Source: Tilletia caries
Taxonomy: Eukaryota; Basidiomycota; Exobasidiomycetes; Tilletiales; Tilletiaceae
Direction: 5' to 3'
Assembly (NCBI GenBank): GCA_032718865.1
Contig: JALUTQ010000007.1
Coordinates: 2,294,001-2,358,000 of the forward strand
DNA length: 64,000 nt
The notes beneath the pieces were generated by a model. The model saw nothing but the letters and a program-made list of their open reading frames with translations, ran no database searches and was not told the origin of the DNA. Position 1 is the stretch's first letter, and each line of letters starts with the position of its first letter. Both the position numbers and the translations under genes were made by a program. Below, one piece after another: positions 2,495 to 23,128 of the stretch.

Positions 2495-2599
2495 ATGTGC
2501 AGCACGTGACTACGATCTGACAGCGTTGAGTCCTTTACACAAAAAACACAAAAGAAAAAAAATACCGAAAACCTCAATTAAACAAATACGCAGCACTTA

Positions 2600-2991
2600 G
2601 AGGCGTACCGTGCATGACGCAGGAACGAGGGTCCCGTCGGAGTATCTGCACCTACATTCTAGACCTTTGAATATGTGCTGGGACCTGGGTACCTGCAGAT
2701 AAATGGCAGTGCCTTGCATGGTCTAGAACCTCAAACGCCGAAAAAAAATCGGGACGGAGTTTTTAACCCGTTCCTGACCACACCTTCACTCAACACCGCT
2801 CAGCACTTCACCTCTACGTTGCATCGGCATCGAGTTGAACACCACTCAAAGCAATCCAATCTTGCGCTCCTGAACGCTTGCTGCGGTGCGCAGCACACTG
2901 CTGATGGTCGCCGTGGATGGGCAGAGAGAAAGCTATATAAGAGACAGTGTCGTGAGGGAGAATTGACTGATTCTACTCATCAAAACACACT

Positions 2992-3029
<38 letters not shown>

Positions 3030-3826
3030 TGACTTATACACACAGTCACACACTTCTGATCCTCGGATCCCTCCTCGCACTCCTCGCGACAACACTCCTC
3101 ACCCTTCCTACTCTCCCAACGACTCTCTGGTCATCAAGGACGAACAAGAGGATCCGGTTCTGCAGTCTTTCGGTTTCTACACTCAAGAACGGCTCCCGAA
3201 CGGCGAAACCGATTCCGAACAAGATGGCGACCCACTTCCCTTTGTTCCTCAGTCACAGCACATTCAAACCGCCGTCGACACCGCCCTTCACTACGTATTT
3301 AGTACCTTCTCAACGATGTCAGCTAATACTAGGGCTTGTTACTTTATGTACATGAAGCCGTTTCTCCGTCCTGAGCTGGAGGAAGCGGTTGCCCAAGCAA
3401 CTGCTCAGCTCCAGGCTGAGAATGATCGACTTACGGCCGAGAACGAGCGCCTCGACCGACACCTTCGAGCCCGACTCCGACTCGCCGGCTCCCGGTTTTT
3501 ACTTTCTTCCGGAATCCCGGTGGTCTCAACAGTCGTGGTCTCGCCACTCACTCCGCCAACTCAACCACGCGGACGGGGTCAACATGGCGGCCCAACTTAT
3601 TGTAGCTGCCGATGGTAACACTCACCACCCCTATCTCCTCCACAACCCCGCTTACCGCTACTGTCTCCGCCGCTTTGCCCCCCCTACTCCCACTCTCACC
3701 CTTAAAGTTTCTCACTGCTCCCTTTGTCTCTCCACTATGCTCCCTCCACAAAAAGATTTCCCTCTTTCTTGACTTCTTCAAAAATTACACTTTGGTGAAA
3801 AACTCTTTTGACTGACATGTCAGCCC
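2600..3826 (+). pseudogene. Segment between integrase and 3' LTR with a degenerate coiled-coil reading frame
   Basis: Between the chromodomain and the polypurine tract are 1.2 kb not needed by a simple chromovirus. The segment holds a TATA-like TATATAAG at 2934, an (AC)n run at about 2993-3025, then an open frame from about 3030 to 3618 whose first ATG is at 3316. The product is hydrophilic and contains a coiled-coil stretch (ELEEAVAQATAQLQAENDRL). Near 3440-3470 the sensible reading appears to move to the frame running to 3772. It could be an extra third ORF of this element or the LTR and gag start of a second, nested element. No family is recognised. Confidence 0.4.
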
Positions 3827-3838
3827 AGAAGGGGAGGA
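3827..3838 (+). promoter_or_regulatory. Polypurine tract priming plus-strand DNA synthesis
   Basis: The purine run AGAAGGGGAGGA lies immediately before the TG that starts the LTR. That is the position and composition expected of the Ty3/gypsy polypurine tract. Confidence 0.85.
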
Positions 3839-3919
3839 TGTAAGGTGTCTGACATATGTAGGTGCCACGCGTACATTATTCAGCACCTCACAAGTTAACA
3901 TTTCTATCCTCTCACCCGT

Positions 3920-4130
3920 ACCGACGCGTGGTGACCGACACGTGGTGCGGGTTGTTTTTCTCTGCGCGCGCGATATGTGGTGCGCGTTGTTTTTTTATTT
4001 TTCTCACCCTGAGACGCGCCGCGCGTCGACAATTGTCACGTGGCGCGTGTGGTGTGCGACGCGTGGTGCGCGTTGGTTTCTCAGGCGCCCAACGCGTGGT
4101 GCGCGTCACGTGTCACATATGGTGCGTGTT
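3920..4130 (+). repeat. Degenerate GC-rich direct repeats inside the LTR U3
   Basis: Units close to CGCGTGGTGCGCGTTG recur at least five times, mixed with CACGTG-type E-box cores (CACGTGG, GTCACGTG). The spacing is irregular. They may be enhancer-type binding sites, which is inference. Confidence 0.55.
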
Positions 4131-4523
4131 GTTTACAATTTTTGGTGAAGTGTTGGTTCACGCGAATTTACCATCGAAACACATTTTTCGCGTGGTGAAC
4201 CAACGCTCACCATGCGCACCGCGCGCACCACTCACCACCGCTTCCTCTCACCTCACCTCGCCACACTCACACTTCCCCTTTGACTCGTCCCTGCTCCCAT
4301 GATGACTGTATGACTGTGTATGTATTTAGCCCGTGTCAAAGGATGACTGTGTATTGACTGCTGGGTGATTTATGGTGACTGTTGGATGACTACTATCTGA
4401 CGCGTCAGTTGTCACGTGGCTGTGACTCTTGTGACTCACCAGCACACCGACGCATCCACATCACCACACCTCAGCGCAGCGCACACCACACAATGCGCTG
4501 CGCATCAGGGGCACCATGAAAGG

Positions 4524-4531
4524 TATAAAAG
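4524..4531 (+). promoter_or_regulatory. LTR TATA box
   Basis: TATAAAAG lies 0.35 kb before the LTR 3' end, in the usual relation to a retrotransposon R region. It is a likely Pol II start signal. Confidence 0.55.
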
Positions 4532-4870
4532 GAGCGCCCTCGCCGCCCTTCTTCCCTTCTGGTCCCCCCAGCTCTTTCCTCTCACACTCCCAGACAACTA
4601 ACTTAGCAATCACAGATCATTGCAGAGTTAAAAGTCTACTGTGTGAAGTCTGAGTCTCATAAAGTTTCATCAAGTGATTGAGAGAGCCACTTTCACCCAC
4701 ACACCTGTAGGACCACTGGTATACTGGTTAGTTATCTAAACATAGTAGCATAGGCCAAAGTTCAGCAGCGCGTCACTTCTGTCTCAATACAACGAGCGGT
4801 ACTACGCGTCCGACTGTCCAACACCAATTCTATTGTGTTTGCAACGACCTTATAACTAGGAAATCTTACA

Positions 4871-6310
4871 CCCTGCCACCGATGGCCAATGACCCCGTAT
4901 GCTCAAGCTGATATCTTTTCTTTCTCCTCAGGGCTCAGATCACGGTCCACGGCTGAGGCCTCAGATCTTTGCTGATCTCTCCCAACTCCTTCTGTGCAGG
5001 AGAGTGTTTCGTTGCTCACGCATATCATCGTTCTCTTCTCACTTTGCTGACAGTTGGCATTTGACCGTTGACGCTCGCATAGTCCGCACTGGCGTCTGGC
5101 CAATTGGCCATCGCCTCTCCGTCGCCATCAATCACAATCATTTACAATTTAAGACAGTGAGTCTTCAATCCCTCATACAGCCTCGTCCTTGTCATCTATC
5201 TCGGCCAAGTGTTCAATTTTCAATCATCTGCAGCAGCGAAGCCACGTCCTCCCGCTTCGACACTCGACAGCAGCTCGCTCGCGCGGGGGGTATCTTTCCG
5301 GCCTTGCCAGCTCGACCAAGACGGGCCGGCCCGTACTGCCTCGGGCATCACGCGTCCTCGGTCCTCCCGCTATCACGATTGCACCAGCTACACGGTCGCA
5401 CACACAATCGGCCGGAACAGCTTCTTATTGGGTCAGCTGCAACCACGGCCGCTTAAGCCCGTACCCCCTTTCCGACGACCGTTCTGGCAGCAAGCTCGGT
5501 AGTCAAACGCGCCTCCGCTTGGACCACTTCCTCCTCAGCTTTGGGGCCTACGCCTCCCGCCCGCTCTGCTATCCTAGCCCGGTGCCGTCTCGATCTTGGC
5601 CGTCCCTGCCCCCTGGAGCAACTGTTATTGTCTCCCCGCCCATAGGGTTGGACCCCGGTCATTTGAAGGTTGCCGTCGCCGCCTGCACCTGGTCTCGTCG
5701 CCCACTGGACTGCAGGCCTTACGGCGCCACCACCCGGAGCTCGTTCTGGATACCTCTGACGTGCCATGCAGCTCATAAGCTACGGAATCAAGACAACTGA
5801 ATCTTCTGGACACCTGTGCTCTGCTCTCCCTTCTTGAGCCGTTTGAGGTCTGAGGATGGGTCTCAACAGGTTATAGGGCCGAGGGGGGGTTGCGATTATC
5901 ATATGGCAGATTGTGAGAGGCAAGGAAAAAGGGAGGGAGGGAGGAGAAGAGAATCATCCTGATATAATTCCACTCAAGGTTTAAGGTCAGCATGCTGAGG
6001 GACGATTGAATGGTTTTGGGCGAGGAGCCTTTGTGTATGGGACCTTCCAGTGACCTTGCGGTCTTTGATTGAAAACTTATGCCAGCTGTCTGCTGTATAC
6101 AGTCAGAATGATCATCACGTTCGGACAAAGAAAGTTGATTAAAATGTTGATATCTGATAACATATCGAGCCTAAGAGATTGGAGAGGTAGATGATTGGAA
6201 TTTGGAGACATTATTGAAGAGTCAAGAGTTGAGAGTCAAGAATCAGGACACAGAGCGAATATATCGGAACAGTAAGAAATTTAGAAGGTGAGGTCTCGCG
6301 ACCGAAATTC
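4871..6310. other. Interval without a recognisable gene
   Basis: No frame here resembles a known family. There are overlapping open frames of up to 203 codons at 5189-5800, rich in Ser, Arg and Pro on one strand and Ala/Arg on the other. They lack a convincing start context or conserved motif. The interval separates the LTR from the minus-strand cluster and may hold the Helitron 3' end, which should be a CTRR terminus with a preceding hairpin on the minus strand. I could not place it. Confidence 0.4.
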
Positions 6311-6316
6311 ATCAAG

Positions 6317-8198
6317 TTAGCGTACGGAGACCGCCCTTTTTGCACCCATGACCTCTTTGCCTTCATCTTCTCGGCTACGTTTCTTCCCCTTTCCTTCCGC
6401 TGCTGCCGCTGCAGAGGAACGCTCCGCGCTTCCTGCTGCCAATCCAAGGTCCGCTGGCTGTCGGGTGATCTGCTGGGCAAGAAGAACAAAGTTCTGACCA
6501 GATGTTTCCTCGGCGTTGACGTTTAATTCGATGTTCTGCCGGGATGCGGGATGATGTGCGGCGTCGCCGATGTACTGAGTAGGCGCAGTGAAAGCTGAAG
6601 TCGCTGCAATTTCTGGAGGCACGCTGCGTCCAGACTCGAGGGTTAGCTTTGGTGGAGATGGCGCAGCGATAGAGGTACCAGCTCCGGAGGAAGATCCAGC
6701 GGAGGGGTCTGCTGTCGTGATACCGAGCGTGTTCATGTATCGGGTCTGAATGCTGCTAGACGTTTCTGCCGAGTTCGGGGGGGAGATGGACCTCCAGGGC
6801 CTCCACTTCTGTTAGGCGGTGGGCTGCAGAGATGCTCCAGGGTGATGACGATCTTGGCGATGTCGTTATACTTGATCGTCTCTACCGTTCCGCGCACGCC
6901 CACGAAGCTTCCGACCGGGACTGTCCGATACTTTGCCCAACGCTTGTTGTCGATTGGAATGCGAACGTCCATCATAAACACCGTCACCTTCCCGTTCTGT
7001 ATCATTGGAAGGAAATAAAAGAGATGATCAGAAGAGTTCGTAACTGGTACTTTTGACGCAGGATGCTTGACTCACCGTCTCGGACACAATCTCCAGGCTA
7101 AAAAACCCAGCTGAAGTTTCAACCACTCGACCAACTCCTCGCACGCGCCATTGCAGAGAAAGACTCTGATTTATAAGGTAGGCAGGGTCCGTTTTTATCT
7201 CCGTGTCGCGCCTCAAAGCGCCCTTCGTTCACGTCGATGCGGAGCGCCAGCTCCTCGAACGTGAGCGGTCCTGTGATACCGTAGATGATCTCTGCTGGAG
7301 GTGTATGGCCGTAGTTCCAGGCAAGGCGAACGTCATGAGTTTCTCCGTCGAGGGAATAGGCCCGACCGGCCACCTCGTTGTTGATCGCAGATTTGAGTAC
7401 GAACCGATGCGACGTCTCGCAAAAGCTGGTCAGAGGATTGACCTCTCTGGGTGCTTCAGATGTGGTTCCTGGGCCCGGCTTTGAATCCCGTCCGAGAAGA
7501 GCGCTGCGCCACATTTCTTCTCGGTCGTTCTTTGACATCGATGCTGCTCGAGGTCCTTCGACTCCAACTTGAAAAGAGTCCAAGGAAACAATGAGCGTGC
7601 CCTCTGAGTTTACCTTGGAAACAACTCCGCGGCCTCCAGCAAAGTTCCCGACTTGCAAGGGCATGATGTTGGCCGCTGGCTTCAAATCGAAGCGAATCGT
7701 ACCCCGCTTTGTGCCTTCGGTCTGTAGTATCACGGCGAAGAATGTAGATATGAGCAAGCGTTAAGGGTTTATACGTTTCTAATCATAGAAGGCTCTCACC
7801 AAGAAGGTCACTGTTGCGATAGTGAATGATGTTTCTGACACAGAAACCACCCGTCCAAATGCACGGATGTACATAGGAAGGAACGAAATGTGCCTCGCCA
7901 TGTAGTCTGGATCGGTAGCCGCGCCTGGGCGAACTTCGACTTCCGAGCGAGCAAAGAAAAGCTCGACTCCGGTTTGAGGGCTAGCGACCATAAATGTCCC
8001 TAGAATGATCGAACCCTCCACAGGACGCTCATCGCGCCACCAGCCGTGCAGAAGGACGCTGATCATATCGCCGTCTCCGATCTTGGCGAGACTTTTGATG
8101 AGAGCATAGTCCTTCTTGCGCGGGTTGTCCTGGATCTCGATGACGGGAAATTGGTGAAATATCTCGCAGTATGAGTTGTACTGACTAAGCTCGGCCAT
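6317..8198 (-). CDS. OB-fold, RPA-like single-stranded DNA-binding protein (putative Helitron accessory), frame broken
   Basis: Exon 1 is 8198-7800 (133 codons, phase 0). Exon 2 starts at 7721 after TACAG. A donor GTGAGT follows VSET near 7073, and the last part starts with NGKVTVFMMD near 7006. At least two beta-barrel segments look like OB folds: about residues 85-130 (MYIRAFGRVVSVSETSFTI) and the C-terminal stretch VPVGSFVGVRGTVETI. A similar GVGRVVETSAGFFSLEIV strand pair lies between them. The tail is low complexity and ends with a basic KGKKRSREDEGK patch. The frame must slip at T5 (7192-7196) and at G8 (about 6776-6783). Plant Helitrons often carry RPA70-like genes. The link here rests on strand, position and fold only. 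Confidence 0.55.
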
Positions 8199-8680
8199 AT
8201 TGATTGTTGATTGTCAGAATGGGGGGAGGATGAGTGTGCTGTGCGCTGGGTGATTCTGGGGAGAATGAAGAGGTATGTGGATGTGGGTGCTGTGAAAATC
8301 AACTGGGTACACTCAGGCAGACTCCCGCTTTTTATATGTAATGCATGCTGCTGGGCGGCATCATGTCACCCATCGCCGTTAATAAGGCCGCAACTGGCTT
8401 GCAACATGTTACATGATGCATAAAAACGTTGTAGTACCTCATCCACAATGCACATGAAATCGTATCACGTCTCATCACTCACGTCGAACTCTAAGGGCTG
8501 TAGCGCTTGACTACCGAGGACCGAGACCCGAGTTCGCTCACACATGCTGACATGAGGTGTCACAATCTGGCAGGAACGTTACATTAGGTAGCGACGGTCG
8601 GACGGACCCAAAGTCTGTAGCCACTGCCACAGGTGCATCGTCGTCAATGTTTTACTCATTGCAGCAGAGCATGTTCTGGT
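8199..8680. other. Upstream region of the OB-fold gene, no gene seen
   Basis: The interval holds the likely promoter of the minus-strand OB-fold gene. I see no open frame with family resemblance and no clear repeat. Confidence 0.4.
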
Positions 8681-8681
8681 G

Positions 8682-9838
8682 TCATGTCCCAAATGATGTG
8701 CTCTGGCCTCTGCGTGTCTCAATGATATCAATGCGGACAGCGGAGACAACAAATGAAAGAAAGAGAAGTATGCATAACATCGGGAGGCGGTAGGTCCAAG
8801 AGCTCAGGCAGTCAATTTCCTTCGCGGATCGTCTCCCGCGAGCTGCTAGCAACTCCTTGCGGTGGAGCACGATGCGAAACAACACACTGGGGAGCGAGAA
8901 CGTTAAGTCGGTCGTTTAGCAGAGATTGGACCAAATTTCGAGACTGGATCACTGGATTAACAGTAACGTACTTGATCGGGTATCCATCGCTGCCGTATGA
9001 AAGCAAAGATGTCTCCGGAACTGTTCACACGCTGTATGAAAAGTGCAATAACGATCAGCGGACAGTGATACTGGGTCATCTTGGCGAGATCGTGCCGACG
9101 TTCAGAACTGACCTTTCGTATAGCACCGTCCATCCACTGAAGGAAAGGACAAAAGAAGGTCAATGGTTAACTGCTGGTCAATGGTCGCCTAAAAGGAAAA
9201 AGCATACTGACCTCTAGTTCATATTCGTCCTTGATCTGACCTGCCGCTGTCTCCAACTCCTCTGAACGCGTTTTGGGCGGATCGGTCCGTTTGCTGGGCG
9301 GTTCCTGCTCATCATCGGCTGAGGCGTAAGAGTCTGAGTCGCTGAGCTCAAGCAATTTGGCCTTCGCGTGCGCCAATCGACTGCTTTGGGTGTGTTGCAG
9401 AGCCGCCAAACGTGCACTACGCCGAGGCTGTTCAGGGTCCACGCGCGTCCGACCACGACGTTTGAGGCTGTGAGCGCTGAGCTTGGAAGATGACGTTGAA
9501 TCCGAGTTGGAGTCATCTGAGACTCCGTCCGTGAAAGAAGCAGTTCCTTCTGAAGCGTCTGGTGATCCGGTAGACTGCGTCACGTCCTCATTGTCGGAAA
9601 CAATGAACTGAACAATTGACGTATCCGAGTCCGCCGATGAATCAGATTTGTCTCCTTCCGTGTCTGGTGCCGACTGGGAAGATGCAGTTCCGATCGAATC
9701 TCCGCTAGGTTCTGAAGGAAGACTCGTCAAGGTAGATTGAGAGCTTGAGGAGTCGTCCTCTTCAGCTTCTTCGATAACATAGTTGATATCGATTTGCGAT
9801 GCAGAGGTGGACGCGTTTGTGATGTCTTGGGGATTTTA
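8682..9838 (-). CDS. Acidic serine-rich protein of unknown function, multi-exon (tentative)
   Basis: The main exon, about 9838-9219, follows an acceptor-like CAG. It encodes a low-complexity, Ser/Asp/Glu-rich, probably disordered chain with a basic patch (LKRRGRTRVDPEQPRRSARL). Small exons with good splice signals seem to follow: one ending at a GTCAGT donor near 9115, one holding RVNSSGDIFAFIRQRWIPDQ ending at GTACGT near 8972, and one starting SRNLVQSLLNDRLNVLAPQ near 8945. The start and final exon are unclear; the last open frame ends at 8682. It lies between the helicase and the OB-fold gene on the same strand, so it may be Helitron cargo. No family is recognised. Confidence 0.35.
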
Positions 9839-10081
9839 GGGCTGACTGCTGAACTATGGACATTATATATTCATACCCATGCATCAAGAGACGCGTAAGC
9901 AACTCCATCACAGAGATCAATGATGAAACGTGAGACAAATGAGACCTACAGGATGTGTGATACATTGCCTCAACAGATACGTTGGTTTGCATTACTACTA
10001 CATCATGACAGGCAACATGACAGAATTGGGTCACTGCGATTTGCGAAGCAACAGAGAGGAAACATTACGCTAAAGTGCAGA

Positions 10082-12515
10082 TCAAGTTTCTTGTAGATGA
10101 GGCAAGGCGCGAGGCAGAACTACATTGGTTGTCGACGTGTCGGATCCAGGAAGCAGGACACGTACGTTTCTGGCGTCAGTAGCTCGTGACAGAGCGACGT
10201 ACAGCTGGCCATGCGAAAAGCAGGGTACCCGCAAGTCGATTCCAACACGGTCAAGGGACTGCCCTTGACTCTTGTTGATCGTCATTGCGAAGCACAATTT
10301 GACCGGAAACTGACGTCTGATAAGGACGTATGGATATCCGCTTTCCTCCGTACGAACATCGATTCGAGGTATCAGGACTCGTTGTCCAATGCGATCCTTT
10401 GCTCCGGTGATGATCATCGCTTCGAGCACTGGTCTTCGCATAGCAGTGACCACCAATCGCGTTCCGTTACAAAGCCCGTTGGAGGGATCAAGATTCCGCA
10501 GCAGCATGATTGGAGATCCAATCTTCAGAGACAGTGCATGCGGGGGAGATCCAGAGGGCTGTTGCGTCGCTAGGTATTCTGCAGAGAACGCAGGAGACTC
10601 GTCGCCGTCGGCCGTGACCGCTCTGTCGGCGCTGAAGAAGGTAATTGCTTCGCCTGGAAGCATTGACAATATCGTCTCGTTCGTTTTGTCGGCAGCATCG
10701 TTTCGTGCATGAAGAATTGCGCGAGGAGCCCAATACCTTTGTGCGGTTACTGGAGAAAAGGCGGCCGGGATGGATTCGTAGACAAAACGAATAAAACTGG
10801 AAGCGTCGTTTCCATTCAACCGAATGGGATCCGGAACCATGACTCGTCCCTTGTTGTCCTGAGGGCAGTGGCCATTACCAATGTGCATCGTCCAGCGACC
10901 GTATTCCATCTGTAGAGAGGCGTCGTCTGTGGACATTGTACTCATCGACAGGAGCAATCGCAGATTGATTCGCAACTGCAGTTGAACCATGCTGCTCCAT
11001 AGCTCGGATTTGTGTAGACAGATTTGAATCGTGTCCGATGTTGTGCCTCCTTGAACGATGGGGAGTGTTTGACGCCAGTCTCCGGAGAACAGTACCACTA
11101 CACCTCCAAAAGGTTTTGAGTTCTGAAGAAGATCTTGGAACAGGCGATCGACAGCCTCAGCAGCATACCTGCTCTGCATAGGTGCTTCATCCCAAATCAG
11201 AACTGAAGTTCGTCGAAGAAGCTCGGCCGATGCTGTTTGAGCACGAACACCACAGCTGGAATCTGCGGTGAGTGTGAGCGGGATTTTGAAACGTGAATGT
11301 GTCGTTCGTCCGCCTTCGAGCATAATGGCCGCGATTCCCGACGCTGCAACAGCGAGGGCGATCTTTCCTTTGCTGCGAGTGTATGCAAGTAACGCGTTCT
11401 CTACGAACGTTTTCCCACATCCGCCTGGCCCATCGAGGAAGAAGGTGGTTGACGAAGAAGCAGGATTGTCGATCGCGGCCTGTATGGTCTCGAAAGCCAT
11501 CGCTTGATCTGCGTTCATGAGGCGGACCATTTCTTCGTACTTGAGCCGCTGTGTGTCCCAGTTGTAGCCGACTTCCTCCAGTACCGCGACCGGAATACGT
11601 ACTTCATCGAAGCTGTATATGTCATCCGGTGGGGGTATACCGTACAGAGCCAAATCCACATCAGCTTGCATCGACCCCAAAACGTCACGAAGCAGAGCAC
11701 GTGAAAGGGATAAGCATCGTTCGAACGATGGGTTTTGGACTCCACGGCGGAGAAGGAGTCGACGACAATCGTCCGCAAGGGCTTCTCTGTGCTTTGTGTA
11801 GAGTCGAAAAGGATCGTCCACGCTTTGGTTTAGCAGGATAGCGCAGAATAGGCGACGCAGAGCAGATCCGTGCTGTATCGCAGAAGCTTCTCGAAGGCAG
11901 TAGTCCCACTCAGAGTCGTCGGTAAGGAGTCCACGAGCGAGGTAAGCAGCACGGAAGGTAGGATAGACGAATTCTTCGAACGTCCGAACGCCAGCGAACG
12001 ATGTTGGTCCCCGGACATGGTGCAGCAGCATTCTGAGATAGAATTTCTCGCCCGCCGTCTGTGGGACGAAATAGACACGGCCGATCTGCCTTCCTTGGGA
12101 GCGCCGCTTCCATGTGCGGTCTTTCTGATTCCATACGTATTGGGACGGAACCTCTGGATAGGTTAGCTCCGCCGTTTCGGATCCAGAGCGACCGCAGAGC
12201 TGAAAGAATGCGAGCAACTTCGATCGACGTTCTTCTCCTTCCATAGTCTCGAGAGTTCCATTCAAATCGTCCGGATCAAACGTCACACGTTGACCGCCTT
12301 CCTCGTGGACGTCCAAGGACATGACAGAGGGCCATATGCCATGCAGAGGTAGCCGTAGCAGTCGTGCGACTCCTTCAGAAAGAAAGGAAACAATACATCA
12401 GAAATTCGGATTTAGTTATGACCTGGTCTGTGAAATACTCACCTTCGCAAGGGGAGACGAATCTAGCGTCCACGTACTCAGAGATCTCGTCCAGAACTTG
12501 TTGCCCCTCAGGTCC
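10082..12515 (-). CDS. Helitron RepHel, C-terminal PIF1-like helicase part
   Basis: This is the helicase third of a Helitron transposase, which unwinds DNA during rolling-circle transposition. From 12515 the frame reads through a short exon (VTVGPEGQQVLDEISEYV) to 12443. A short intron with a GTGAGT donor follows, and an exon starting near 12372 runs open to the stop at 10082. Walker A is GPGGCGKT, Walker B is VLIWDEAPM, and the C-terminal motif contains TINKSQGQSLDRVGID followed by QLYVALSRA. The helicase frame is uninterrupted over about 750 codons. It is separated from its Rep domain by the MITE at 12524-13359 and by inversion of the preceding segment, so it cannot be made as a full RepHel here. 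The open frame starting at 12322 might give a helicase-only product. Confidence 0.93.
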
Positions 12516-12523
12516 CACTGTGA
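12516..12523. repeat. Target-site duplication half, ACTGTGAC
   Basis: This is the complement of GTCACAGT at 15333-15340, which lies at the left end of the other copy of the same MITE, not at the far end of this one. It is the swapped partner that marks the inversion. Confidence 0.9.
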
Positions 12524-13359
12524 CCAGTGATCATCACCATTTGTCATACATATGAAGTCATATTATGCATATGACAGAATTATGACAAAGTCTCATTGTC
12601 ATATTTATGGCCATAATGCCTCCCGTGGCTGTCATATGACAGCTTTATGACAGAAATATGACATAATTTTCCCGCCCTAAATTCTGTCATATTCTGTCAT
12701 ATGACAATGCAGAACATATGCCTTATGTATGACAGTATTCTGACAAAACGTCCACAGCCGGGCCGAAAAGATGCATAATTCTGTCATATGGTCGTGCATA
12801 ATCATGTCATATTCTTGGCAAATCTGACATTTTTATATGACCTGAGCTCTAAATTCTGGTCAGGCTCACCGCTCAGGCGCCGAGTGCCTGGCATTTTTCA
12901 GAATAAAATTAAGCGTTTTTGGCATCTTCCGTGTCTCCGGCATCCCCCTGGGCCCTGCCCCTTCTCCCGATACAAAATAAAAACGCTCCGGAGCTCAAGA
13001 TGGCTCCCAACATGTTACATGTTCCGCAGCAAGATTCACGCGCCTGTTCTGGATGGCTGGATATGAGGTGAAAACTGCGCCAACCTGAAAGAGGGAACGC
13101 GGCGACGCGGCTTGACGCGCTTCGCGGTTCACCACATGGCGAGACGCGCTTCGCCACGCGATATTACGGTCTACTCAGAGGCGGAAAGTTTGCTTACGTA
13201 ATATGACAGAAATATGACAATTTTATGACTTCATATGACAGAAAAATGACATTTGCATAATGCATATATATGACATCGCCTTCCCAAAACTAGATTGTCA
13301 TAATGCAGATATATGACATCGCCCAAAAAATTGTCATATATGCATCATAATGATCACTG
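12524..13359 (+). mobile_element. hAT-like MITE, family X, copy 1 (836 bp)
   Basis: The element starts CAGTGATCAT and ends ATGATCACTG, perfect inverted ends of at least 10 bp. The start fits the YARNG consensus of hAT termini, and the duplications in this cluster are 8 bp. The first and last 200 bp are packed with ATGACA, TGTCATAT and related motifs on both strands, as in the subterminal transposase-binding regions of hAT elements. The internal open frame (12909-13157, minus) shows no transposase motif. The copy is nearly identical to 15341-16173 in reverse orientation. Confidence 0.88.
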
Positions 13360-13367
13360 CCACAGAC
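13360..13367. repeat. Target-site duplication half, CCACAGAC
   Basis: Its partner is GTCTGTGG at 16174-16181, next to the other X copy. Joining the two flanks at this octamer restores an open Rep frame, which identifies it as an original target duplication. Confidence 0.9.
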
Positions 13368-13826
13368 GCAGATATAGCGGCTGCAGCGTTGCAGGATCCC
13401 AATGGTGCGTTATTGCTTCCTCCTGTGCGGTCTGATGCTTTCCTATATGCGCTGGACGTTAGGCAATGTCTTATGCTCATCTCTCTCTCTCCCTGTCTTA
13501 CGTTTCCGTTTGCAGTCGTTCGAGGCCGGGGAGCGGGAGGTTCGCACAAAGTTTCGCTTGAACAATTCCACTGCTATCATCTCCATCTACGATTCACCTT
13601 CTCGACCCTTCTCCATGGCGGCACATTGATGCAGGAGTTCATTGTCGATGCCTGGGTCGTTGCCGAGCAAAGACGTCTCCACTTCATACGATCCAATCAA
13701 AGCCAGCTTCGGGCAGACGTGTACAAGGGGCTGCAGGATGCACTCATGAACGGCACGGATCTGAACACGCTCGGTCAACGCATCGTGTTACCTTCTTCGT
13801 TTACCAACGGTCCTCGATACATGCAG

Positions 13827-14601
13827 TAAGGAAGAGCACGGAGTAGACCCCGGAATGGGTTTGCAGGAATTCCGGGGCACTCCGGGCAGAGTTCCGGCGG
13901 TACCCGGAACCCGGAATGCTAATTTTCAATTTTTGTCAGTTTAGTCCTTTTAAGCAGGAAGCCGGAATTTCCTGGTACCGCTCAGCCGGAATGCGGAATA
14001 GATCTTGCTTTGGCCGTAACTTTTTCTTGCGGAATGCGGAATCTGTGGTCAGACAAGCTCATTCTCCCGAAATTCCGCCGGATTCCGGGAGATTCCGGGG
14101 GGGTCACGTGATGTGGGGTCTCATTCGGGGTTTCATTTATCAATGAGACTCTCCGGCGAGTTTCACATATGAGGAGACCCAGTCTTGTGGTCTCAACAGG
14201 ACACATGAGGCTTGAAGAGGAGCAAATGGACGCGAGTGAGGCATCAAATGGCCAATGCAGAGCTTCAATGTAGACTGTGGACGAGTACAAAGCCGATTTA
14301 GAAAGGGGTCGACTCGTTTTTCATATGATCTTGCGACTGCGGAGGAGAGTCCCGGAATCCGGCGAAATTCCGCATTCCGGGAGCTGCGGAATGCGGAATC
14401 GAAAAATTGATCAAAACCAAAATTTTGACGGAAGCCGGAATTCCAGATGTACGAATTTGAATCTTTCCCCGGAATACGGAGCTCTGCGCCCGAAAGAAGA
14501 GTAATTTAACCGGAATGCGGAATGCCCTGAGAGGCCCCGGAATTGCTGCGGAGGTCCTCCCCGGAGTGCGGAAATTCCGGGGCACTCCGTGCTCTTCCTT
14601 A
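13827..14601 (+). mobile_element. hAT-like MITE, family M, copy 1 (775 bp)
   Basis: The inverted ends are TAAGGAAGAGCACGGAGT and its complement ACTCCGTGCTCTTCCTTA. The element is flanked by the exact 8-bp duplication ACATGCAG (13819-13826 and 14602-14609). The interior is rich in CCGGAAT/GGAATGCGG motifs in both orientations. No transposase frame is seen, so it is non-autonomous. It is nested in the Rep frame between RYMQ and ARYHD. Confidence 0.92.
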
Positions 14602-15332
14602 ACATGCAGGCGCGATATCACGATGCAATGGCTTTGGTACGCGTCTACGGAAAACCGGACATCTTCATCACCATGACATGCAATCCGCTGTGGAAGGAGA
14701 TCGTCGAAAATCTCAAACCACATCAGCGCGCTTCAGATCGGCCCGACATCGTTTGCCGCGTTTTCTGGCTGAAACTCAAGCACCTGATATCCTTCCTGAA
14801 GGAGAAGCAAGTCCTCGGAACTGTTGTATCCTTCACGTGGACCGTCGAGTTCCAAAAGCGAGGACTTCCCCACGCTCACATCATCATCACTATGAACAAC
14901 GAGGACAAGACTCGATGTGCAGCGGACATTGACAGCATCGTCAGTGCCGAACTCCCGGATCCTGCAATCGACGAAGAGCTGCATAATCACGTCCTTGGGC
15001 AGATGATACACGGGCCCTGCACACCAGAGCAGCCATGTATGCAAAATCCAGAATCACCAGGCATTTGCACACGACGTTTTCCCTTTGCACTGCAGGAAGA
15101 AACTGTCGCTGGAGACGACGGATATCCTCTGTACCGCCGTCGCAATACTGGTGTTTCTGTGCAGAAACAGTGTGGTCGCGGGTTTCGAGACGTCGACTCT
15201 ACGTGGGTTGTACCTCGCAATCCTTTTCTGCTCAAAACGTTTGGCTGTCACATGAACGTGGAAATTTGCACGTCCATTAAGGCGGTCAAATATCTCTTCA
15301 AATATATCTTTAAAGGGCCAGATCGCTCTCGG

Positions 15333-15340
15333 GTCACAGT
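15333..15340. repeat. Target-site duplication half, GTCACAGT
   Basis: It matches ACTGTGAC at 12516-12523 in inverted orientation. It ends the Rep segment (RVTV) and should continue directly into the helicase exon (VGPEG). Confidence 0.9.
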
Positions 15341-16173
15341 CAGTGATCATTATGATGCATATATGACAATTTTTTGGGCGATGTCATATATCTGCATTAT
15401 GACAATCTAGTTTTGGGAAGGCGATGTCATATATATGCATTATGCAAATGTCATTTTTCTGTCATATGAAGTCATAAAATTGTCATATTTCTGTCATATT
15501 ACGTAAGCAAACTTTCCGCCTCTGAGTAGACCGTAATATCGCGTGGCGAAGCGCGTCTCGCCATGTGGTGAACCGCGAAGCGCGTCAAGCCGCGTCGCCG
15601 CGTTCCCTCTTTCAGGTTGGCGCAGTTTTTACCTCATATCCAGCCATCCAGAACAGGCGCGTGAATCTTGCTGCGGAACATGTAACATGTTGGGAGCCAT
15701 CTTGAGCTCCGGAGCGTTTTTATTTTGTATCGGGAGAAGGGGCAGGGCCCAGGGGGATGCCGGAGACACGGAAGATGCCAAAACGCTTAATTTTATTCTG
15801 AAAATGCCAGGCACTCGGCGCCTGAGCGGTGAGCCTGATCAGAATTTAGAGCTCAGGTCATATAAAATGTCAGATTTGCCAAGAATATGACATGATTATG
15901 CACGACCATATGACAGAATTATGCATCTTTTTCGGCCCGGCTGTGGACGTTTTGTCAGAATACTGTCATACATAAGGCATATGTTCTGCATTGTCATATG
16001 ACAGAATATGACAGAATTTAGGGCGGGAAAATTATGTCATATTTCTGTCATAAAGCTGTCATATGACAGCCACGGGAGGCATTATGGCCATAAATATGAC
16101 AATGAGACTTTGTCATAATTCTGTCATATGCATAATATGACTTCATATGTATGACAAATGGTGATGATCACTG
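15341..16173 (-). mobile_element. hAT-like MITE, family X, copy 2 (833 bp)
   Basis: This is the reverse-oriented near-copy of 12524-13359, with the same CAGTGATCAT/ATGATCACTG ends and only small differences. Its flanks are GTCACAGT on the left and GTCTGTGG on the right. These do not match each other, but each matches one flank of copy 1. That swap is the signature of inversion by recombination between the two copies. Confidence 0.9.
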
Positions 16174-17968
16174 GTCTGTGGAGAACATCTCGCGAGGAGC
16201 ATCCCGGCCTAAGGGAATCCAGTAATGCCAGCCCAGATGTCCGAAGTAAGGAAGAGCACGGAGTGCCCCGGAATTTCCGTACTCCGGGGAGGACCTCCGC
16301 AGCAATTCCGGGGCCTCTCAGGGCATTCCGCATTCCGGTTAAATTACTCTTCTTTCGGGCGCAGAGCTCCGTATTCCGGGGAAAGATTCAGATTCATACA
16401 TCTGGAATTCCGGCTTCCGTCAAAATTTTTGGTTTTTGATCAATTTTTCGATTCCGCATTCCGCAGCTCCCGGAATGCGGAATTTCGCCGGATTCCTGGA
16501 CTCTCCTCCGCAGTCACAAGATCATATGAAAACGAGTCGACCGTTTTCTAAATCGGCTTTGTACTCGTCCATAGTCTACATTGAAGCTCTGCATTGGCCA
16601 TTTGATGCCTCACTCGCATCAATTTGCTTTTCTTCAAGCCTCATGTGTCCTGTTGAGACCACAAGACTGGGTCTCCTCATATGTGAAACTCGCCGGAGAG
16701 TCTCATTGATAAATGAAACCCCGAATGAGACCCCACATCACGTGACCCCCGGAATCTCCCGGAATCCGGCGGAATTTCGGGAGAATGAGCTTGTCTGACC
16801 ACAGATTCCGCATTCCGCAAGAAAAGTTACGGCCAAAGCAAGATCTATTCCGCATTCCGGCTGAGCGGTACCAGGAAATTCCGGCTTCCTGCTTAAAAGG
16901 ACTAAACTGACAAAAATTGAAAATTAGCATTCCGGGTTCCGGGTACCGCCGGAACTCTGCCCGGAGTGCCCCGGAATTCCTGCAAACCCATTCCGGGGTC
17001 TACTCCGTGCTCTTCCTTAGTCCGAAGGGTATGAGGATGGGGAAACGTAGAGGAAGAAAGCAAGGATGTGACTCGTTGATCCTACGAAGCGGGCCATTTT
17101 TGTATTGGAAGACGATGTCCCTGCCGCTCCCTTCACTTGCGTTTCGATCGAAAACGATTGCTGCGATCTCGGATGCTCTTGGTAGGTTGTACGTGCGCGG
17201 ATCCGGTCCTCCTTCAGCTCCAGGATGGATAATTCGTACCCCCACCTCCGTTTCGGTCGTAGCTAGATGGTCCAGCATTGTTTTCGAGCTACGCAAAGCC
17301 TCGACGAAGGGATTGACGTCCCAAAGAATTCTCTGCAGGCCATCCAGTGTGTTCGGTTGGAGCCCAGTATTGGGCCGAGACGCTCTGATTCCGGTAGCTT
17401 GCGCAGGATCTGTGGCCACGAAGTAGACCTGAGCGTACGAAGGCGTGAAGCCGTCCTCTGGAACCAAACCGCCGATGCGATGATGTACCTGCCCTTTGAC
17501 CTTGAAGGTGTATATGCCGCGCTGTCCGGCAACGCTGAGGTCGCGAGTACCACCGAAAGAGAGGAACGCAAAGGCGTTATTGTAATCTCGAATGTTGCGA
17601 CGGAATTGATCGGCCACATCGCCACCACTTGTGTACAACGCTTGTAGCGTCGGCGGGCAGTCGAAGATTTGAGGCAGAACAACGTTTCCGTTACTGCAGC
17701 ATGTGCCGAACTTCGGTTTGCACATGGACCCCGACGTCTTCTCGGATATCCAATGCAAAGCTAGGCAATGTTCGCAAACGTGTTCCATGAATCCGAGACT
17801 GTGCAGGACAGCATTTGCTCCGTCGCCGCGTGCCGGTCGATGCAGCGGCATGAAGAAAGGTGGAAAAACAGAGGGAATGGACTGTTGAGTAGGCCGGAAG
17901 GCAGTAGGAATCAAAGAGTCAGTGGAAGGAGGGAACTTCGACACTCCATCATCAGCGCAAGAATCCAA
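16174..17968 (-). pseudogene. Helitron RepHel, N-terminal part, interrupted by MITE M copy 2
   Basis: Reading leftward from 17968, the frame contains a Cys/His cluster (EHVCEHCLALHW, then GTCCSNGNVVLP) and the Helitron N-region including RNIRDYNNAFAFLSFGG, and runs to RFPILIPFG at about 17020. The MITE at 16247-17019 follows. The frame resumes as HLGWHYWIPLGRDAPREM and stops at 16174 against MITE X copy 2, from where it should continue into the inverted Rep segment. The start is uncertain: 17968 is the first ATG of the open frame, but upstream exons are possible. Apart from insertions the frame is intact, suggesting recent damage. Confidence 0.88.
16247..17019 (-). mobile_element. hAT-like MITE, family M, copy 2 (773 bp)
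   Basis: The ends TAAGGAAGAGCACGGAGT... and ...ACTCCGTGCTCTTCCTTA are as in copy 1, flanked by the exact duplication GTCCGAAG (16239-16246 and 17020-17027). It is almost identical to copy 1 in reverse. Because copy 1 sits in the inverted segment, both originally pointed the same way. Removal leaves RepHel in frame (IPFG to HLGW). Confidence 0.93.
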
Positions 17969-18364
17969 ATCAGCTGTACTTCATAGGGCTATATGAATCA
18001 TAATATCCGTTACAGTAGGTCGTTGCCGTACACCTGAAGCCTGTAGAGATTTTCATTGCAGATGTCAACATGAGGATTGAAGAAGGTAAGTTGCGTATGT
18101 GAAATGTTTCCCGAGTACTGTTGCCTTTACGGCTATAGAACTGTATCATTTGCTGTAACCAACAGGTAAAACTGTTCTGGGCTTTTGTTTGTTGCGTTAA
18201 TTTTTGCGATGTGGCGCTGTGAAAGTATGAGTTCTAATGTCTAAAGGTGCTGCAAGCCTGCAAAGTTCGGAATGAAGCACGCAAGCCCTGCTGCAAATCC
18301 CACTGTTACATTGCTCAAGGGATATGTTAGCAGCCAGATGATGGCACACTGCGAATACGGTTAG
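17969..18364. other. Region upstream of the Helitron N-terminal frame, no gene seen
   Basis: It contains no supported coding frame. It may hold the RepHel promoter and the 5' end of the Helitron, but I could not identify the terminus. Confidence 0.35.
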
Positions 18365-19642
18365 CTACGTGTATGTCAAAGATGCTGTTGACAGTCGGTG
18401 ATGATGAGGTGACGTAAACTCGGTGCAACCTCTAGAGGAATAATAGGTGGCTGGAAAGTTTTGGGCGACCCATCGAGATACTGTGATGAAGCCCACCAGG
18501 GACGGCTTCGTAAGACGAATGTGGTAAGAGCGGGGAGATGCCCAGAAAGTAAGATAGGTTCGCGAGGGGCACCAAGATCTGCTATTTGTCATGTGAGGTA
18601 TGCCTGTTGAGTGAGCTGTGAGGTAAAAGAGACAATGGATTTGAGAAGGATTGTGGACTGTGGTACTCACAACGGTGGGAAAGGATAAGCGTTTCTGCAA
18701 GGGGCTCCGTGCATGAGATTCGTGCTCCCGAGAACGTTCGGCGGCAAACTGTGTGCGTCGTGTTGTCGAGGGGTACTTCTGGATCCCGGCAAGATCTAAC
18801 GGCATCGGGTGGAGACGATTTTGCAGAGACGCGATTGACAAAGATCGTGTACTGCGCGTCGATGCAAGAGCATATCGGTAGATCATCGTAGTAGTCTTCG
18901 GAAACGATGACATGCCGCAGGGACGGTGCGACAGATTTCCAAATGGTAGGGAAGCAGAAGTTTTTCCGTCATCGTGCCGGAGAACGTATCTAGGTCCCAC
19001 TTGGAGAAGCCCTGGACGACGATGGTATGGAGGAAAGGAAATTGGGCAGAGAATGCCACAATCTCTCCATCCTCCGTCAAATCTGCAACCGAGAGGCGCC
19101 GAATGAAGAATCAGAGAAGAAGTACTGGGAGTACATGAAGAAGGACACTCACCTCCGCGGAAAAGAATGAAAACCTCGAGGAAAGGACATCGCTTCGACA
19201 GGACCCGAAACCGTGCGCTACGGTGTTGATCGCGGTAGAGATCCGTTTCCTTCAGCGACCCAGTGAATTCGAGGCGGCGAACGCACCATCCTAATGCCAG
19301 CTCCGTATAAAGTTGACGGGAGAAAGCAGAGCTGCCGTTCGGATACGAAAGGCGAACTCGCTGTAGCAACTTGAAGCGAAGCAGATGGTACCATGAATAG
19401 CAAGTCCTACTCAACTGTGCGAGAGTGGCCTGCGAGTCCGGATCGGCAAAGATATGGTTGAGTATGAGATCCCAGATCTCAGCAGGCAGTCGTGGCAGCG
19501 GTGCCATCTTGTCAACCATCGGAGTGAGAGCGGCAGCAGGGAGTTGTGGAGAGGAAGCGGGATGCTGCGAGCAAAAAGAAGAACAGCAGGACTTTGGATC
19601 GACATTCAGGGAGAGCCGAGGAGGGCAGCTCTCAAATATCAT
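18365..19642 (-). pseudogene. F-box protein, frame broken
   Basis: An F-box motif lies near the N terminus (LPRLPAEIWDLILNHIF, followed by LAQLSRTCYSWYHLLR). The first ATG is at 19642, or 19507 directly before the F-box. After residue ILFRG a GTGAGT...TGCAG intron (about 19152-19083) leads into LTEDGEIVAFSAQFPFLHTI. The frame then slips at a five-base A run (plus-strand T5 near 18961-18965): beyond it the meaningful frame reads IWKSVAPSLRHVIVSEDYYD. Such genes usually encode SCF ubiquitin-ligase substrate receptors with variable C-terminal leucine-rich or unknown regions. The 3' end is uncertain, with a further GTGAGT donor near 18675. It is either a decayed family member or affected by a homopolymer error. 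Confidence 0.62.
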
Positions 19643-19690
19643 TACTGATCACCGGTGAGCTTTCAGCTTAGTCGTCAAGAAAAATATCAG

Positions 19691-19820
19691 AGAGAAATGA
19701 GGGATACATGGTGCGATAGATACCTAAATTGTGCTGCGTCATGCGTGCAACGTGAAGAGAAATGAGTGATACATGGTGACATGGATACCTGAATTGTGCC
19801 GCGTGCATTGTGCAACTTGA
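19691..19820. repeat. Two-copy tandem repeat, 65-bp period
   Basis: The unit beginning AGAGAAATGAG, with GATACATGGTG and AATTGTGC further on, occurs at 19691 and again at 19756 with a few substitutions. Confidence 0.75.
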
Positions 19821-21647
19821 TTCGAGAATGCAACGTAGCATTGAAAAGGCTGGTAGATCAGTACATCAGTGTTCATTGATGCAAAATGCAGGGGGCCACC
19901 TAACTGATGATTGATCATTGATGCAAAATACGGGGAGATACGTGTATCATGTATACATGGATTGAAAAATTGAAACGTCAGCAAGTGAAGCAACGAACAC
20001 AAAACGTTACAGCACAACACGGTGGCAGATGAGATATGAGAATCGAGGAGGGATACATTGTTATCGTACTTGGATTTTGGCGCGGGTTGCTTTACACAAA
20101 AGAGTCGAGGAGGCAACAACGGAGGACATCGCCGTTCTCATGGCAATGGCGACGCTTGAAGCAGATACAGTCTGGAAGGTCGGGCGACGCGCTCTAGCCA
20201 GACTTGAAGGAAGCGGTTCAGGCAACTGAGGAGGAAGAAGAGCAAAGGCGCGGGGAGGGCGAGCGGGGTCATTCACTCATTGATCGATGTTCTTGAGGCC
20301 AGGAAACCCTGCAGGAGGAGGAAGCGTAAACTATCAGAAGGAGGCAGGCCGCAGGGTACTGGTGGAGTTGCGATGAGTTTTGATCATCTCCAGTCTCCAC
20401 CCACTCTGTCTCACTTATTCCCTTCACCGCCGTCGCCTACCCGACGGGTCCAGCCGTCACACACATAGTGGAAGCAACAATCCTCGATCCCCGCCACTCT
20501 ATCGTGAATCGTCTTGGTTGAAGCTGTGGCAGCGTGACTCTCATAGTCCCATCTCCGGTCCGCTTCGCTACGTTCATGAAGGCAGGCACTGAGACGGATG
20601 TGGCCAGTGGCGGACGGGTCGGAGAGCAGCCGAGCGGGTCGGACAACGGGTTTGCGGTCTGCCTCTTGCGAATAGGTCGTTCCTCCTACCGTGAATGCGC
20701 ATGGCTTCAGTGACACTACACTGCGGCGGCCGGCGTCGTCGCAGTCGTTGTCGGTATCAGGCGTTGATTCGTTGTTGAAGTTGGAGTAGCTAACAGCTTC
20801 GGGTCGACGGCCTTGCCCTTGCAATTTGGAGCGATCCAATCAGCGTGCCTGTGAGTTGTGACAACTGCACATGGTGTAACAGATGCTCACTGAGGAGTGA
20901 GGGGCGAGGCGGATTGAAGGAGAGTTAACATTGGCTGGAAGCAGAGAAGGAGAAGGGGAAGGGCATCAGATAGAAGAGAAGCGTCAGCTAATGGAGAGGG
21001 GAGGGAGCTGATGATGCATAGACTCCGACCGTTCTTCACCGCTGCCGTCGTCGTTGCTGATGAATTCAGAATGTGATGTGTGAATGTGATGTAGTTGTGA
21101 GTTCGATGAGGGAGGGAAAGTGGGTTGAAGGATTCGAACTGGAGGGAGGAAGCAACATAGTCAGCTACCAACTTCGGGCTGGGACTGTTGAGTGCCGGCT
21201 GATTAGGGGATGGCCGTCTCCTTTGACCTTTGTTATGCAAAACGATTCAGATGGCGCGCCTGGGACGCATGATCGGACAGGTGCTCAGTGCTCACCGAGC
21301 AACATCGGCTACCTGTTTGAGGCGGACGAAGAAGGAGGGATTACACTCAACCAAAGAAGAAATGGGCGTCAGCTTATGGAGAGGGGCAGAGGATTGATGA
21401 CTTCAAGGTATGAGCGCTGGGAAAGGGCTGATGCCTGGGTGAAGGAGGCAGCGGAAATGATGAGGGCAACGCAGCGTGGTTTCCAGCGGGGGAGCGATGT
21501 GTGTTGCTTACTTCATTTCGTGGCCGTGGGTTTCGATGATGGTGGTAACGTGGAAGTAGTGACATCGCTGTGGGTGTACAGGATCGATGTTCTTCCCACT
21601 CCGTCTATCCCACGGCCCGAATCGGAAGCAATGCATTTCTATCAGCT

Positions 21648-21832
21648 GGGCGGGAGGGCTCTGCCCCCCCGGACCCCCCCAAAGTCCAAAGGTACGAAGT
21701 TGCATCAGTCGTCTGGGTTGAAGAAATGTGTTGCTTCCAAGACAGGCAGGTGCAAAGGTTGGTTACATAAAGGTCACGACTATGTATGGCATTGGGGGGG
21801 TCCGGGGGGGCGAAGTCCTCCCGCCCAGGTGA
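21648..21832. repeat. Inverted pair of G/C-run blocks
   Basis: The block CTGGGCGGGAGGGCT followed by long C runs around CGGA (21648-21687) recurs inverted at 21790-21832, about 100 bp away. Each can form hairpins or G-quadruplex. A similar block is at 22073-22112 and another at 31418-31445. Confidence 0.6.
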
Positions 21833-23128
21833 CCGTGCCGGCCCGGCGACGGTGTGTGCGTAGGACGAAGCTGCCTCCCATAGCGTGGTTTGTAAGGTTT
21901 CTAACGCGCCGCGTGGGAAAAGCAACAAATCAGTTGTAACTGTCTGAGCTCAGGTTTGTAGTTCTGATTACAATGTGGTGTAAGCTTCCTGAAATGAGGA
22001 GATTGCCTTTTAGTGGGAAGATATGGTGGAGATTACAAAATAGATTACAAACACGGTTAGAGTCGAGGTTAGAGGGGGGGGGGGGGTCGAGGGGGGGCAC
22101 AGCTCCCCCCCGCTCTGGCTTGATTGTCACCACGTGTTGTGAGCAGATCGGGCTTGCGCCAATTGTCTTGGCCAACCATTCCAGCCAGGCTGCGCTCATA
22201 CTTGTGTGGTTGCGCTTCCAGAAGATTTCATACGCCGCCAGCGTTGCTTGGCTCATCGCTCATCGCTCACCCACTCTTGCGCTTTTCCATCACAACGCTT
22301 CCCAGGATGCTCAGCTCTCAGCGAACACGATCAGGTATCGGCATCGAGCAGGGCCGAAGCGCCGACCTTTGGCATCGGATGTGCCGGGCGTGTCAGTTGT
22401 CGACGCCTCTCGCAGGACGATGGAGATGTTCAACGGTCGCTCGCGTATCCAACGGTCACAGTCGGCCAAGGTGGACAAGTCCCCAATCGAGCATTCGGCC
22501 ATTCTGCAGCACGAGGACTGCGGCACAGCCTCTGACGCGCGTTCTCACCAGCTGGCCTCGTCGTTGAGAGTAGTAGTAGTGTCCCAAAGCACCTGTCGGT
22601 CAGTTGTGCTTCCGCTGAGCCGGAAAACATGCACTGAGTGATTGCTGCCAGATGCCCCAAGGCTTACTGGTATCCCGTCACGGCCCACTGCTCACGACTC
22701 ACTTTGGTCTCTCCGCTTAGTGCTCCGCTAAACTCTTCCTGTTTGCTGGCTTCACCTTCTACTTGGCCCACAGACATTCGCCCTCGTCCGTTCCGTGCAT
22801 TTCCCAATCACAAGACCAGTCAGTCTTCTTCAACTGATCTTTTCTGACTTCTTTCCACCACCTCCCTCCTTCCTTCCGCCCTCATCCTCCTCACCAGACA
22901 TCGAGTGATCTGACTCGATCCCATCCTTCTTTCTCCTTCTCCCCTTCCTCGGCCTGGTGCCATCTCTCTACGCACGCACCCTCGACGGGTACTGCGAACT
23001 TTTTGTTTCCTTCAGCCTTTGACAGGTCCACGAATCTCGCGCGAACAGGAATCGCCCGGGTATTTCACTTTACAGCACAACTTCTCCCCCTTTTTCTCCA
23101 ACCTCCCACCCCCATTTCCAAGCCCAAC

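Follow-up and report, generated by a model that had tools for sequence, protein, structure and literature searches.

Known systems and the Tilletia caries locus

Inversion of DNA between copies of a transposon or of a miniature inverted-repeat transposable element (MITE), with target duplications exchanged between the copies, is already known from Galileo (PMC2775673) and BuT5 (PMC3355041). This text describes a small case of the same kind in the wheat bunt fungus Tilletia caries. It lies in a window of 64,000 nucleotides, this being the whole stretch of DNA analysed (GenBank assembly GCA_032718865.1, contig JALUTQ010000007.1; C7:2294001-2358000 in the contig labels used here). Within a Helitron transposon, the segment that carries the Rep domain is inverted between two copies, X1 and X2, of a non-autonomous hAT-type element, X. 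The genome searched comprised 38.1 Mb in 40 contigs.

Galileo of Drosophila buzzatii belongs to the P superfamily and makes 7-bp duplications; it was shown at a chromosomal inversion with chimeric element copies (PMC2775673). The T. caries case differs from it in that the element is hAT-type with 8-bp duplications, that the inverted segment is 2 kb long and lies within a different transposon, and that there are too few sites to show chimerism. BuT5, found at inversion 2s of Drosophila mojavensis, is alike in being a MITE of ~1 kb with target duplications exchanged at both breakpoints. It differs in its 9-bp duplications, in one copy reduced to a footprint and in a fixed chromosomal inversion (PMC3355041). 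The DAIBAM MITE of the Drosophila virilis group left its signature at the breakpoints of eight of nine inversions, from which ectopic recombination was inferred; these are insect chromosomal inversions, and the phrase 'target site duplication' is absent from the paper's text (PMC6278893). Non-autonomous elements derived from hAT transposons have been proposed as recombination substrates in Atlantic cod, but there they form tandem arrays and the inversions are large chromosomal ones; the text of that article does not contain 'TSD' (PMC12368964). The maize Ac/fAc system shares with T. caries the hAT superfamily, the 8-bp duplications and the element-flanked inversions. A new duplication is made at the maize junctions and the inter-element segment is lost (PMC8225341), whereas the T. 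caries locus has both duplications exchanged and its segment complete. The novelty lies in the host, in the small size of the rearrangement, in its position within a Helitron and in how complete the evidence is. None of the papers listed by searches of an open literature collection deals with this event or with MITEs flipping a Helitron.

Exchanged target duplications at the breakpoints

The two X copies lie in inverted orientation at the breakpoints of the inverted segment, and exchanged target duplications are present at both. Each copy has mismatched flanks of its own, four of the eight bases differing at either one. The octamer to the left of X1 is the exact reverse complement of that to the left of X2, and the two right-hand octamers correspond in the same way, with 8/8 bases matching on both sides (positions in Table 1). 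The pairing had been proposed in the initial annotation together with an inversion of 13360-15340, and both were borne out to the base; the coordinates given there also stand, except that the first octamer begins at 12517 and not at 12516.

Chance is ruled out as the source of this pairing. Random octamer pairs drawn from the window matched as reverse complements in 52 of 2,000,000 draws, which puts two independent matches at about 7e-10. X1 and X2 also form the only reciprocal octamer exchange, by exact matching, in the 1326 pairs that can be made from 52 copies of X and of a second non-autonomous element, Y. No second exchanged pair was found among the 30 X loci and 22 Y copies compared. The remaining exact octamer matches involve the truncated X copies L014 and L024, the loci L021 and L030, which share one octamer, and the tandem array of L060, L062 and L063. 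This array (C27:981283-984634) consists of three consecutive Y copies, all on one strand and all with the octamer GCAAGGTG, and is probably a tandem duplication of Y with its flank.

Unflipped sister copies and the direction of change

As suggested in the initial annotation, the same genome was searched for an uninverted copy, and protein searches returned five close Helitron copies, L051-L055, on contigs C5, C13, C3, C23 and C28. They are 92-99% identical to the window for each protein piece and about 99% identical in DNA; the helicase half of L055 is about 3 kb short. The stretch corresponding to window positions 13360-15340 aligns, in each of the five, in the orientation opposite to that of its neighbouring stretches. 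The four insertion sites of the window, namely those of X1, X2 and the two Y copies Y1 and Y2, are empty in every sister, with one octamer copy at each; two of these 20 empty-site octamers are one base off (L053 at X2 and L052 at X1). The X copies were thus inserted into single octamers.

The open frames of L051 and L052 run unbroken through the two joins FSTD-ADIA and R(V/I)TV-GPEG, while in L054 both joins are present in two overlapping frames. The joined frame that had been predicted by re-inverting the segment (FSTD to ADIA, RVTV to GPEG) is therefore found in nature in the three sisters that were translated. The N-terminal, Rep and helicase parts also lie on one strand in ten out of ten more distant Helitrons, a count that covers the places where all three parts occur close together and leaves aside those with one or two. 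Since the five close and ten distant copies are all colinear, the unflipped order is ancestral and the window represents the derived state; the opposite polarity, with the arrangement of the window as the ancestral one, is rejected on the same counts. With Y1 and one copy of its duplication subtracted, the inverted segment measures 1198 bp. The length in L051 is identical, and relative to that copy no bases have been lost or gained.

When the Rep-containing frame of L052 was compared with proteins from outside this genome, with scoring confined to proteins of similar length and to the 7992 candidates with the most shared words, 11 proteins were returned. The best of them, from Tilletia indica, is 51% identical, and they are uninformative on orientation.

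One of the sisters carries a rearrangement of its own. In L053 a separate inversion of 7.2 kb (344-7509 of the locus, C3:699844-707009, corresponding to window 7785-18188) affects the coding region, with a few bases lost and no repeat seen at the breakpoints. It looks like an inversion of the end-joining type, to judge from these junctions.

Table 1. Positions of the elements, octamers and Helitron parts in the window.
Feature	Position	Strand	Remarks
X1, non-autonomous hAT-type element	12525-13359 (835 bp)	+	ends CAGTGATCAT...ATGATCACTG
X2, second copy of X, inverted relative to X1	15341-16173 (833 bp)	-	99.3% identical to X1
Octamer ACTGTGAC, left flank of X1	12517-12524	+	pairs with left flank of X2; single copy at empty sites of sisters
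Octamer CCACAGAC, right flank of X1	13360-13367	+	pairs with right flank of X2; checked at empty sites of sisters
Octamer GTCACAGT, left flank of X2	15333-15340	+	checked at empty sites of sisters
Octamer GTCTGTGG, right flank of X2	16174-16181	+	checked at empty sites of sisters
Y1, second non-autonomous element, inside Rep coding region	13827-14601	+	duplication ACATGCAG at 13819-13826 and 14602-14609
Y2, Y copy outside the inverted segment	16247-17019	-	duplication GTCCGAAG at 16239-16246 and 17020-17027
Helitron copy, approximate limits	4871..22022	coding sense -	ends of alignment with close copies; interrupted by X1, X2, Y1 and Y2
N-terminal part of Helitron protein	17000..17980	-	open frame; 92-99% identical to close copies
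Inverted segment with Helitron_like_N (Rep) parts and Y1	13360..15340	+	opposite sense in 5/5 close copies; PF14214 in both pieces
Pif1-type helicase part	10082..12516	-	PF05970 E 9.5e-62, PF21530 E 3.1e-18 (frame 10082-12394)

The X family and its probable hAT origin

X has 46 matches in the genome, fragments included. Of these, 30 were fetched; 24 have both ends, and the six that lack an end, L030 among them, were left out of the duplication count. The intact copies measure 828-879 bp and have the short terminal inverted repeats CAGTGATCAT...ATGATCACTG. Duplications of 8 bp flank the 22 intact copies other than X1 and X2, perfectly in 20 cases and with one mismatch in two; X1 and X2 show such duplications only once the exchange is allowed for. 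X1 contains 10-16 stops in each of the six frames. L030 is one half of an X copy whose two parts are separated by 6.8 kb of other DNA; a perfect duplication is still present at the outer ends of this copy.

A larger relative, L076, occupies 7 kb on C25. It has X-like sequence on both sides (95% and 91% identical) around a hAT dimerisation domain (PF05699, E 2.5e-19). With the left terminus of L076 decayed, the link to X is made by these flanking stretches. Several X fragments are broken at one shared internal position, near 520. From the ends, the 8-bp duplications, the resemblance to L076 and this shared break, X is best read as a putative internal-deletion derivative of a hAT transposon.

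Elsewhere, two X ends lie 7.7 kb apart with the perfect duplication GGGCGAAG (L077 and L078, C3:483803-491521). The same octamer occurs in reverse complement at L021 (C32:559211).

Mechanism of the inversion

The inversion probably arose by local transposition of X followed by ectopic recombination between the two inverted copies. A recently active Helitron would have landed at the locus, and X would have inserted into its coding region. A second X, probably derived from the first by a local hop, would have followed in the opposite orientation at a distance of 1.2 kb. Host homologous recombination between the inverted X copies would finally have flipped the intervening DNA and exchanged the 8-bp target duplications. 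With 99.3% identity over 835 bp, X1 and X2 make a good recombination substrate; the repeats are long and close to each other, so the flip is probably reversible.

Local hopping without inversion does occur in this genome, as the pair L010 and L017 (C33:595172-598325) demonstrates: these X copies lie 1.4 kb apart on the same strand, have no substitutions between them and keep separate perfect duplications. With this precedent, a hop followed by recombination is more economical than the insertion of a hybrid element, discussed below. X1 and X2 are separated by two substitutions and four homopolymer lengths. One substitution falls at alignment column 623, which is variable in the X family with both states common, and the difference is easily explained by two separately inherited copies; the other is unique to X2, if one badly aligned truncated copy is set aside.

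Several observations weigh against local hopping followed by recombination. A 36-bp deletion common to X1 and X2 is private to them, being absent from 22 of the 22 other full-length copies aligned (two truncated X copies do not reach the site). This suggests that the two copies are close kin or were homogenised, and it would follow from a single aberrant transposition that derived both from one copy; plain recombination requires an additional assumption, be it a local hop, gene conversion or a deletion that happened twice. A chimeric pattern of X1 and X2 is not demonstrable, the two substitutions and four homopolymer lengths being the sole sites at which one could be seen. Other inverted pairs also remain unflipped: Y1 and Y2 form an inverted pair 1.6 kb apart and 97.7% identical, and on C15 two further Y copies in inverted orientation, 24 kb from each other, have likewise not been flipped. 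Since both Y1 and Y2 keep perfect duplications, they give no sign of mutual recombination of the X1/X2 type.

The most serious competitor, though an unlikely one, is hybrid-element insertion, in which the transposase would have paired, after replication, one end of X on one sister chromatid with the other end on its sister and inserted this hybrid 1.2 kb away, so that the copy, its duplication and the inversion were made in one event. The authors of the Galileo study noted that its outcome, when it starts from the same site on sister chromatids or homologues, is strikingly like that of recombination, except that the copies are identical and not chimeric (PMC2775673). The shared deletion and the few differences between X1 and X2 agree with such an origin, and the larger element with the hAT dimerisation domain shows that a relative encoding this domain is present in the same genome. 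Alternative transposition is known for hAT elements of maize, and impala of the fungus Fusarium is cited in the same source, which also describes such events as rarer than standard transposition (PMC8225341). The kinship of the copies may be explained otherwise. Short direct repeats border the 36-bp deletion, and at this place L026 bears another deletion, different from it; such deletions may thus recur. The substitution at the family-polymorphic site leaves room for copies that already differed when they arose, and the L010/L017 pair shows that ordinary hops to nearby sites take place. A fuller version, in which a single aberrant sister-chromatid transposition of a hAT element in the fungus made the second X and the inversion, and the segment now flips so that both orientations coexist in culture, is judged a shade less likely still.

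The word 'proven' in the initial annotation accordingly suits the direction of change in the assembly and is too strong for the mechanism, as hybrid-element insertion leaves nearly the same pattern.

It is quite improbable that the arrangement is an artefact of assembly or reflects a mixed culture, the true or major orientation being unflipped and the assembler having crossed between the X copies. Every junction between an X end and its flank is identical in both orientations, as read from the assembled sequence. Short reads are consequently blind to orientation, and only reads spanning an entire X are informative; the length and 99.3% identity of X1 and X2 would favour such a crossing. The contiguity of the assembly, the resolution of six Helitrons about 99% identical to one another and the lack of any N in the window speak against an artefact and suggest that the reads were far longer than 835 bp. 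For two isolates of T. controversa, a Tilletia genome paper names PacBio reads (PMC9172201).

Two further origins can be given hardly any credence, namely reversed-ends (alternative) transposition between direct X copies, by which element-flanked inversions arise in maize Ac/fAc but which loses inter-element DNA and makes a new duplication (PMC8225341), and breakage with end joining, of which L053 provides a look-alike in the same Helitron family but which would not put both breakpoints exactly at inverted X copies; both are rejected by the empty sites, the shared and exchanged octamers and the unchanged length of 1198 bp.

Order of events and effect on the Helitron

The Helitron copies differ from one another by 0.3-0.7% over 2.4 to 6.5 kb. 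X and Y arrived after the copy in the window had split from its sisters, because they are absent from these sites in all five, and the inversion dates from the arrival of the second X or later. The events at the locus are all young, and the substitutions are too few for finer dating.

The initial annotation held that the inversion disables another transposon. The Rep segment is indeed inverted between inverted hAT-type elements, but the inversion does not hold as the disabling cause. It was not needed for this, as the frame is predicted to have been interrupted already when the flip occurred: X1 and Y1, both located in coding sequence, have stops in every frame (4-11 per frame in Y1), and the flip was preceded by at least one X.

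The Y pair and other features of the window

Y measures 775 bp. Duplications of 8 bp and terminal inverted repeats were found in all 24 copies examined (Y1, Y2 and 22 of the 38 others), L072 being counted among them after a one-base shift of its end for a changed terminal base. A further pair, on C11 (16320-31666; L079 and L080), consists of two inverted Y copies on a 48-kb contig whose duplications are mutual reverse complements, which suggests an inverted duplication. It was dropped as an independent control, since its octamer is the same in reverse complement and the pair resembles an inverted duplication of one locus.

Helitrons end in TC at the 5' side and in CTRR with a hairpin at the 3' side, and make no target duplication. 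The element in the window is identified by a Rep (HUH) domain and a Pif1-type helicase in one element, colinear on one strand in the five close copies. The N-terminal part gave no Pfam match. Within the Helitron, an open frame of 427 amino acids on the minus strand (18368-19648) shows a weak resemblance to an F-box (PF12937, E 0.0061) that falls short of the curated threshold. This stretch is about 99% identical in DNA in all five close copies and is possibly a captured host gene.

A different multi-copy element with many matches (92-100%) occupies 3001-4871 and ends where the Helitron starts, and the other Helitron end is abutted by a family of short repeats, about 160 bp in length (22020-22183). 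Farther along the window, a reverse transcriptase frame on the plus strand (27603-29267; PF00078, E 3.8e-27) probably belongs to a retroelement. The host gene at 44118-45644 encodes a cytochrome b2-type L-lactate dehydrogenase that is 100% identical over its full length to a T. caries protein, which fits T. caries or a very near sibling as the host.

Significance

The locus is an unusually complete small case, in which the ancestral state, the empty sites, both octamers, the direction and much of the event order can be taken from one genome. The events are readable in this way because five nearly identical unflipped Helitron copies survive. Ideas on the mechanism of such inversions are unchanged by it. 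To the inversions documented in insects and proposed in fish, it adds an example of a few kilobases from a smut fungus. Whole genomes could be screened for exchanged target duplications in order to detect pairs of short elements that took part in recombination or aberrant transposition in the past.

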